From Halarchaeum rubridurum (GTDB lineage: Archaea > Halobacteriota > Halobacteria > Halobacteriales > Halobacteriaceae), in NCBI RefSeq assembly GCF_014647115.1, contig NZ_BMOO01000001.1, positions 186,001 through 250,000 on the forward strand: 64,000 bases of DNA. Reading direction: 5' to 3'. The notes under the pieces were generated by a model. It saw only the letters and a program-made list of their open reading frames with translations. It did no database searches and was not told the DNA's origin. Positions 11,293 through 12,482 of the stretch are shown here, in pieces (positions within the stretch are counted from its first letter, which is position 1; the number at the start of each line of letters is the position of its first letter). Made by a program: the position numbers and the translations under genes.

Positions 11293-12324
11293 TTACGCGA
11301 CGACCGACGCGACCGCGGCGTCGAGCGTCGAGAGTGCGTCCGTGAGCGACGGCACGACGGCGTTCACGTTGCCGTTCGCTCGGGCGTTGCCGTTATCGCT
11401 CGCGCCGGCGTCGCCGTTACCGCTTGCACCGGCGTCGCCGCTACCGTTCGCGCCGGCGCCACTATCGTCGCTCGCGTCGTCGGACTCGGAGTTGCGCTCG
11501 TCCGCGTCATCGTCGGCGTCAGCGTCGCCGTTGGACGCGCTACCACCGGCGTGCGCGCCGGCTTCCACGGACGCGCCGGCTTCCTCGTCGTCCGCTTCGT
11601 CAGCGTGCTCCGAGCCCCGTTCGTCGGCGTCCGACTGACCGCGCTCGTCGGCACCGGCACGCTCGGACGCGTTCGGCTGGCCGCGTTCCGACGCGTTCGG
11701 CTGGCCGCGCTCGTCGGCACCGGCACGCTCGGACGCGTTCGGCTGGCCGCGTTCCGACGCGTTCGGCTGGCCGCGCTCCGACGCGTTCGGCTGGCCGTGC
11801 GTCGAGACGTTCACCTGACCGCTCGCCGATGCGTTCGCGTGGCCGTCGGCCGACGCGTTGGCCTCGCCGCCGACGACGCCGCTGACCGCGGCCCCGAGGT
11901 TCGACACGTCACCGCTCAGGAACGCGTTGATGAGGCCGTGGATCGACGAGACGTGGTCCGGTGCCTGCGCCGGCATGTCGGTGGGCGGGCCGGCACTCGC
12001 GTCCGTCTCGTTAGTCGCCTCGTTTTCCGTCGTTGTCGTCGTTGTTGTCTCGTTTTCCGTCGTTGTCGTCGTTGTTGTCTCGTTTTCCGTCGTTGTCGTC
12101 TCGTCGGTCGTCGTTGTCGTCGTGGTCGTCTCGTTTTCCGTCGTTGTCGTCTCGTTGGCCGCGACGGTCACGTTCCCGGTCGCGTTCGTGGCGGCCGCGA
12201 CGTCGCCGTCGAGGGTCGCGTCCGTGGTGGCTCCCGTACTTGTGCCGACTGTCGCCGCGCTCGCGCCGCCCGCGGTGACGAGCAGCGCGACGAGCGCGAC
12301 GGTGCCGAGTTTGGTGAGCGTCAT
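11293..12324 (-). CDS. Secreted low-complexity protein with GQPNASER octapeptide repeats
   Basis: The product (343 residues from the ATG at 12324; an ATG five codons earlier is possible) has a Sec-type signal peptide (LGTVALVALLVTAGGASA). It continues with a Thr-rich segment built of ENETTTT-like units, a short ordered part near DHVSSIHGLINAFLSGDV, and then five perfect GQPNASER octapeptides. The octapeptides fall in groups of three and two, each followed by AGADER, with degenerate copies on both sides. The C-terminal 110 residues are Asp/Gly/Ala/Asn-rich. I count at least 16 N-x-S/T sequons, so heavy N-glycosylation at the cell surface is likely. No anchor helix or sorting signal is seen at the C-terminus. 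I do not recognise a family; function unknown. Confidence 0.75.
   Translation of the reverse strand: MTLTKLGTVALVALLVTAGGASAATVGTSTGATTDATLDGDVAAATNATGNVTVAANETTTTENETTTTTTTTDETTTTENETTTTTTTENETTTTTTTENEATNETDASAGPPTDMPAQAPDHVSSIHGLINAFLSGDVSNLGAAVSGVVGGEANASADGHANASASGQVNVSTHGQPNASERGQPNASERGQPNASERAGADERGQPNASERGQPNASERAGADERGQSDADERGSEHADEADDEEAGASVEAGAHAGGSASNGDADADDDADERNSESDDASDDSGAGANGSGDAGASGNGDAGASDNGNARANGNVNAVVPSLTDALSTLDAAVASVVA
11659..11796 (-). repeat. Coding tandem repeat encoding GQPNASER units
   Basis: A 24-base coding unit is present in five near-identical copies. The array has a higher-order pattern: three units, AGADER, two units, AGADER. Near-identity at the DNA level points to recent slippage or unequal recombination, so copy number probably varies between strains. 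Confidence 0.85.
12019..12159 (-). repeat. Coding repeat encoding Thr-rich ENETTTT units
   Basis: Repeated units of GTT/GTC-rich codons (on the plus strand) encode Asn-Glu-Thr followed by runs of four to eight Thr. Several units are identical at the DNA level. The product resembles a mucin-like stalk with embedded NET sequons. Confidence 0.75.
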
Positions 12325-12482
12325 TGGTCGTGCCTCCACCCGGGTCGTGGGTCGGATGGGTATTGAACGGTGGCGACCGTACCCGGCGGTTTGAGCGCCG
12401 TTTAGTCCGATTTAACTCGGCTTAACGGTCGAGGTCGGAGTGATCCCGGGCGCTTTTCGGCCGGCGGGTCCTACCGGTTCGC

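Follow-up and report, generated by a model that had tools for sequence, protein, structure and literature searches.

A widespread haloarchaeal family of exported-type proteins with a conserved core, variable sequon-bearing arms and a helically phased upstream A/T array

The open reading frame and its parts

The window, by which we mean the whole stretch of 64,000 nucleotides analysed here (Halarchaeum rubridurum, assembly GCF_014647115.1, contig NZ_BMOO01000001.1, positions 186,001 to 250,000 of the forward strand), carries on its minus strand an open reading frame, 12324..11293, that starts with ATG and translates into a sequon-rich protein of exported type of 343 amino acids (11293..12324). 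It is flanked by hsp20 and ABC1-kinase genes on one side, hsp20 lying 55 bp downstream, and by moeA genes on the other. The reading frame is kept in relatives, and because it contains a core conserved at the protein level in many genera, sequence comparison makes it very likely that the gene is real. Our reading of the frame agrees with the original prediction, which had given 343 amino acids, at least 16 sequons and five exact GQPNASER octapeptides.

The protein, all of whose parts are encoded on the minus strand, begins with a Sec-type signal sequence (residues 1-23, MTLTKLGTVALVALLVTAGGASA, 12256..12324), judged by a hydropathy script and by the sequence, and with a putative cleavage site. 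Residues 1-25 are identical in the same-genus ortholog, which supports this assignment, and the export-type signal fits the claim that the protein is secreted. A Thr- and NET-rich stalk follows (residues 47-107, 12004..12186); it was correctly recognized in the original prediction, holds seven sequons (five NET plus NAT and NVT) and is modelled by AF2 with low confidence. Next come the conserved core, with two helices predicted by AF2 (residues 112-154, 11863..11991), and a sequon repeat region that includes the five GQPNASER copies (residues 156-222, 11659..11859). By translation and AF2 the remainder is a low-complexity tail rich in Asp, Gly and Asn (residues 229-323, 11356..11640) and a predicted C-terminal helix (residues 327-342, 11299..11346). 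In a same-genus genome (G005) the protein ends in the same ten residues. In AF2 of the whole protein, built on seven aligned sequences, 220 of the 343 residues scored below pLDDT 50, and Pfam and NCBIfam scans of the protein found no domain.

S-layer glycoproteins and other ArtA substrates are defined by a C-terminal PGF-type motif together with a membrane span. By inspection, the C terminus of the window protein (PSLTDALSTLDAAVASVVA) has neither. No C-terminal membrane anchor was seen by inspection, as had been said before, and the helix predicted by AF2 is an addition to that picture.

A core family without a library name

The core of about 45 residues has the pattern GPP..LP..VPD.V and is predicted to form two helices. 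Six positions (P16, P20, V23, H27, L41 and G42, numbered by the first row) are invariant in 48 aligned cores, one row of which is the window protein, with the core pattern of the family. At E <= 1e-3 a profile of 16 core sequences matched 143 of 293 genomes of the order, some of them with short relatives only, and 44 of 87 genera; a 48-sequence profile, run on 145 genomes sampled from the class, found matches in 87. Of 196 genomes sampled across the phylum 22 matched, all of them from the window's own order. Pfam and NCBIfam gave nothing credible for the window protein and the 48 core sequences (the best match of any member, at 0.017, was zf-HC2), the core profile had no match at E <= 1 among PDB sequences, and a single tblastn query with one relative's core had none at E <= 1e-3 in a plasmid collection. 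By these sequence comparisons, this is a widespread haloarchaeal family without a name in the Pfam, NCBIfam and PDB collections searched.

An AF2 model of a 60-residue core fragment placed helices at residues 21-35 and 41-55 (mean pLDDT 78, pTM 0.49), with pLDDT of 82-96 in ten-residue blocks across residues 11-50. The arms around the core, by contrast with this fixed element, are of low complexity, predicted to be disordered and remodelled between species, and across genera they are often Asp-rich with few sequons. The family covers genera without GQPNASER-type repeats, and some relatives are barely more than a signal and a core. For family statistics we kept 82 of the 103 distinct proteins, those with a signal-like start and at least 95 amino acids, and dropped 21; rough custom scripts called the control ORFs and applied the rules for signals and membrane spans. 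Since what the family shares is a repeat-free core, and at most one sequon is present in 29 of these 82 exported-type members, the description of the protein as built around its sequons was not supported.

Several relatives depart from the usual layout. Short proteins of 65-91 amino acids that start with MIE (L024, L016, L026, L025, L017, L018, L021 and L051) have the same core and no ordinary signal sequence; phased A/T tracts precede several of them as well. In L085 and in L089 / L093:5560-6399 a longer N-terminal part precedes the core; that of L093 (Natronocalculus) has a weak Cadherin-like Pfam match below the cut-off.

The locus in congeners and in other genera

The order ABC1-hsp20-gene-moeA is kept in two congeners, H. 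nitratireducens and G004, and Halospeciosus flavus has ABC1-gene-moeA with no hsp20 match. A fourth congener, G003, a draft genome that is 89% complete, has no gene at this place: moeA1 and hsp20 lie 90 bp apart in mid-contig (L170:2336-2425), and parts of both intergenic stretches still match there. As the site is otherwise intact, the gene seems, on this sequence comparison, to be dispensable in the G003 lineage. Two other matches in G003 were followed and rejected: L022 holds no recognisable family sequence, and the stretch around a weak match at C134:5244-5348 (E 3.2e-4) has no recognisable family member.

In other genera the neighbours of family genes look exported or membrane-bound; they include a DUF4382 lipoprotein-like protein, a DUF7345/DUF7343 protein and a small hydrophobic protein. 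The first occurs near the family in 8 of 30 named loci and the second in 17 of 30, where Pfam covered one example of DUF4382 and two of DUF7345/DUF7343, and BLAST clustering assigned the others. These usual partners are not adjacent to the gene in the window. The DUF7345/DUF7343 protein (L105:7751-8944, L112:7296-8420) combines a signal with a single apparent membrane span, ends in a DUF7343 domain, which we take to be a wHTH, and could be a membrane-bound regulator. A DUF7096 search gives a match in H. volcanii, and a Haloferax volcanii glycoproteomics study names as N-glycosylated the DUF4382 protein HVO_1030, together with HVO_1944 and HVO_1945 (a 'transmembrane glycoprotein/HTH domain protein' and its neighbour) (PMC8241124). 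We infer that the latter two are counterparts of the DUF7345/DUF7343 protein and of DUF7096.

Sequon use in the arms

The 16 sequons of the window protein exceed what its composition would yield: when residues 24-343 were permuted 10,000 times, the mean was 6.2 (sd 2.1) and the maximum 15. Across the arms of the 82 exported-type members, N-X-S/T occurred 233 times against 91 for the reversed S/T-X-N, and in an Asp control on the same arms D-X-S/T occurred 251 times against 279 for S/T-X-D. The sequon direction was favoured in 52 of the 82 members and the reverse in 8, with a p-value that is optimistic because the members are related. Thirteen of the 82 have no sequon at all, so glycosylation cannot be universal in the family.

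High sequon use as a trait specific to the family was, however, rejected. When the 30 named loci were counted more roughly, the 34 exported-like neighbour ORFs had 113 sequons against 24 reversed, compared with 132 against 134 in 221 cytoplasmic-like ORFs, 9 against 7 in 27 membrane-like ORFs and 100 against 62 in the 31 family ORFs. Sequon use is thus a property of exported haloarchaeal proteins rather than of this family, and the window gene, with 4.66 sequons per 100 amino acids, the third highest density of the 82 members, is an extreme case of it. The window genome encodes an STT3-type oligosaccharyltransferase (PF02516 above cut-off, G000:C3:283166-283987, 90.7 bits), so that the sequence marks expected of an AglB-type N-glycoprotein, namely an export signal, sequons above composition and a transferase in the genome, are present. 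The idea that the protein displays glycans therefore gains from the excess of sequons and from the transferase, and loses from the sequon bias that nearby exported-like proteins share.

These counts bear on an alternative that we regard as rather unlikely, in which the arms are near-neutral, disordered acidic linkers with incidental sequons and function resides in the helical core alone, which might act, for instance, as a secreted helical peptide or an envelope-bound ligand. It would account for arms that vary across genera and are often Asp-rich, for the 29 members with at most one sequon, for the short relatives of hardly more than signal and core, and for a sequon bias that is general to exported-like proteins and weaker in the family ORFs. 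On the other hand, the arms favour the sequon direction, which speaks for real sequon use, and the high rank of the window gene does not fit with sequons that are there by chance.

In-frame growth of the repeat array

The five exact GQPNASER copies begin at residues 177, 185, 193, 207 and 215, and their DNA is nearly identical, as originally predicted. Beyond that prediction, octapeptide copies 2-3 plus AGADER make up a 66-bp unit that is duplicated in tandem with no mismatch (two units GQPNASERGQPNASERAGADER, 11641..11772, minus strand); TRF reports a period of 66 at 96% for the array. The absence of mismatches indicates that the array grew recently. The octapeptide DNA pattern occurred five times in the window genome and in none of the 26 other genomes of the same search. 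The repeats differ between species; in the same-genus ortholog the core is 91% identical but the arms have different sequon and Asn/Gly repeats.

The original prediction had compared the protein to bacterial phase-variable adhesins, whose tandem coding repeats are prone to slippage and have units that are not multiples of three. The window protein shares with them the tandem coding repeats; its units of 24 and 66 bp, however, are multiples of three and keep the frame, so ON/OFF switching is not expected and we rejected it. What stands of the earlier claim is recent in-frame growth, and the nucleotide repeats make length variation of the array plausible. As an account of the gene, a glycan-display adhesin whose phase or length varies by slippage nevertheless appears quite improbable: sequon-rich repeats, their exact recent duplication and their absence from the other genomes searched speak for it, and against it stand, besides the in-frame units, the lack of any Pfam or NCBIfam domain and of an anchor by inspection, the congener that has other repeats in their place next to a nearly unchanged core, and the genera of the family that do without such repeats. 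The repeats decorate the gene locally; what lasts is the core, together with a phased promoter.

A phased A/T array upstream of the family

Upstream of the gene is a helically phased array of A/T tracts (12390..12425, minus strand), located at 12422-12425, 12410-12415, 12401-12404 and 12390-12392 by periodicity and tract search, 68-101 nt before the ATG. A promoter-core-like motif, CACCGTTCAATACC (12359..12372, minus strand), is by anchored alignment the counterpart of a family motif TCCCCC(C/G)TTCAAGT, with a putative TATA/BRE role. Across the family, upstream regions have A/T tracts about once per helix turn within GC-rich DNA, with a period of 10.3-10.5 bp over roughly six to eight turns. 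At 10.5 bp the 82 family upstreams had a mean power of 0.306, the 132 control upstreams, taken from the named loci, one of 0.079 and shuffled family upstreams one of 0.061; the best power at 10-11 bp was higher in the family than in the controls (p 2e-27). The difference persisted in 47 representatives below 60% identity (0.290 versus 0.079, p about 7e-19), in which the signal was sharp, falling to background at 9 and 13 bp. Power above 0.3 was found in 48 of 82 family upstreams versus 6 of 132 controls, and above 0.2 in 75 versus 20; only 3 of the 82 were below 0.15. The window gene, at 0.31 for 10.5 bp, has the array typical of the family. Among 28 assignable genus labels (26 of the 82 rows had none), 27 had a member above 0.2 and 22 one above 0.3. 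MIE-start and short relatives have the array too, in weaker form (means 0.22 and 0.27).

When the upstreams were aligned on TCCCCC(C/G)TTCAAGT, which lies at a median of 44.5 nt before the start, A/T peaks appeared near -68, -57, -47, -36, -26 and -16, with their spacing kept. A motif finder run on the 47 representatives converged on the array unit, and the core-promoter motif comes from the anchored alignment only. Chains of at least four tracts at 9-12 bp were present in 46 of the 82 family upstreams versus 8 of the 132 controls, and under stricter rules in 21 of 82 versus 2 of 132. Within the window the strict rule returned 12390-12425 only, a looser one adding 1246-1287. Applied to 400 kb of the host genome, the strict rule found four chains, three in surroundings of 46-56% GC and one in 71%, so that, at about one per 100 kb, a chain alone is not unique to the gene. 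Likewise, a strict pattern search of the host genome found the target and one other place, versus four matches of a reversed control pattern; the pattern by itself is thus not significant, and the case rests on the comparison across the family. Inspection of the upstream DNA showed TpA steps within the tracts of some genera and runs of A in those of others, so intrinsic curvature alone may not describe all of them.

The G003 empty site, where moeA1 is intact, has no array, which led us to reject the idea that the array belongs to the divergent moeA1. We set aside a sigma-70 promoter scan of the upstream region as not applicable to archaea. The remaining suggestion, that the periodicity is a general trait of AT-rich haloarchaeal promoters and no specific cis-element, draws on the lower GC of family upstreams (55% versus 61% in controls), on the controls that score above the thresholds, on the scattered chains in the host genome, one of them in GC-rich DNA, and on a DUF7096-like neighbour in Natrinema-type loci that scores as well, and it is made very improbable by the excess of high-scoring family members and strict chains, the loss of signal on shuffling, the sharp period, the fixed spacing of the anchored peaks and the missing array at the G003 site. 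The control is moreover conservative, since some of its high scorers (L091, L092, L103 and L104) look like the back side of a family array.

In Natrinema and Natronorubrum, the DUF7096-like gene near family members encodes an exported-type protein and is itself preceded by phased A/T tracts (L112:8473-8594, L115:9094-9215, L100:8912-9030 and L097:8134-8259). The DUF7096 Pfam match is weak and below the cut-off in L115 and L105 and is absent in L112. The host-genome DUF7096 gene had no phased array upstream; it follows the end of a protein that has a Thr/Ser stalk and, at its C terminus, a PGF-like hydrophobic segment (L195:1-3576, reverse complement).

Proposed role and comparison with known systems

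Neither the promoter array nor the clean absence in a congener figured in the original prediction. The reading that we prefer, with moderate confidence, is that the gene represents, in Halarchaeum, a haloarchaeal family of envelope proteins that are exported and have glycosylated arms, an envelope-docking core and expression controlled by a phased array. The signal sequence, the Pro-rich motif with the predicted two-helix core, the sequon-enriched arms of predicted disorder and the phased tracts are computed, and the remainder of the mechanism is inferred. The protein would be exported through Sec, AglB would place N-glycans on the arm sequons, and O-glycans may be added to the Thr stalk. The small helical core would dock on a partner in the cell envelope, and the glycosylated acidic arms would form a hydrated brush at the cell surface. 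If, as we propose, mainly glycan density and charge matter, arm length would be free to change by in-frame duplication. A nucleoprotein structure on the phased array, either a wrapped or a cooperative complex, would set expression.

In a more specific version of the last step, a nucleoprotein complex would wrap helically on the family promoters, which would be conserved sites for its assembly; the binder would be an HpyA-type histone or a cooperative regulator. This we put forward as a speculative and on balance unlikely extension, suggested by about six tracts at 10.3-10.5 bp and at fixed spacing to the core-promoter motif in nearly every sampled genus. Haloarchaeal histones are not known to package the genome. 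The DUF7345/DUF7343 protein encoded nearby in Natrinema-type loci is a suggested candidate for a cooperative regulator. If true, the wrapped complex would amount to a chromatin-like switch, dedicated and gene-specific, for the expression of an envelope glycoprotein.

Among open-access full texts, our literature search on the promoter feature returned general work on phased A-tracts and no description of this array. The closest published match that we found, a likeness by analogy, is HpyA of Halobacterium salinarum: HpyA-bound regions have a 10.4-bp A/T periodicity that the genome lacks, lie in coding and intergenic DNA, and yielded no sequence motif, and stronger periodicity was found in 3 of 100 random region sets (PMC10128011). 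The same text gives an 11 bp periodicity for HstA sites of Hfx. volcanii. The likeness to HpyA sites lies in the period, which in the family array is 10.3-10.5 bp. Phasing of A-tracts at 10-11 bp is a known feature of prokaryotic genomes (PMC3940949, PMC3431218); unlike such general phased A-tracts or curved DNA, the family array is anchored to the promoter of one gene family, and some of its tracts contain TpA steps.

The protein, for its part, recalls three kinds of known surface protein. The S-layer glycoproteins of Hbt. salinarum and Hfx. volcanii have a Thr-rich region with O-linked disaccharides (PMC2913515). Like them, the window protein is of exported type, with a Thr-rich region and predicted glycosylation; unlike them, it is short, without the C-terminal span and motif and without a Pfam match. 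HVO_2160 is the largest protein of Hfx. volcanii, is predicted to be a substrate of ArtA and has 19 confirmed N-glycosites (PMC8241124); the window protein resembles it and other measured AglB glycoproteins in being of exported type with many sites. Halomucin of Haloquadratum walsbyi is exported, has possible glycosylation and sulfation sites and has been proposed to form an aqueous shield around the cell (PMC1544339); it differs in having 9,159 amino acids with mucin-like domains, against 343 and a core of 45.

On the preferred reading, a conserved exported haloarchaeal family, nameless in the libraries searched, would combine a fixed core with arms that evolve freely and are probably glycosylated. 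The array, which has survived deep divergence, offers a testable target for what haloarchaeal histones or other architectural proteins recognise, and the empty site found in one congener hints that the gene could be deleted without loss of viability.

Elsewhere in the window, a minus-strand ORF of 381 amino acids (926-2071) encodes a protein whose start is twin-arginine and lipobox-like and which has a short Thr/Glu stalk; the stretch that holds it, 1-2500, has a GC content of 60% versus 69% overall.
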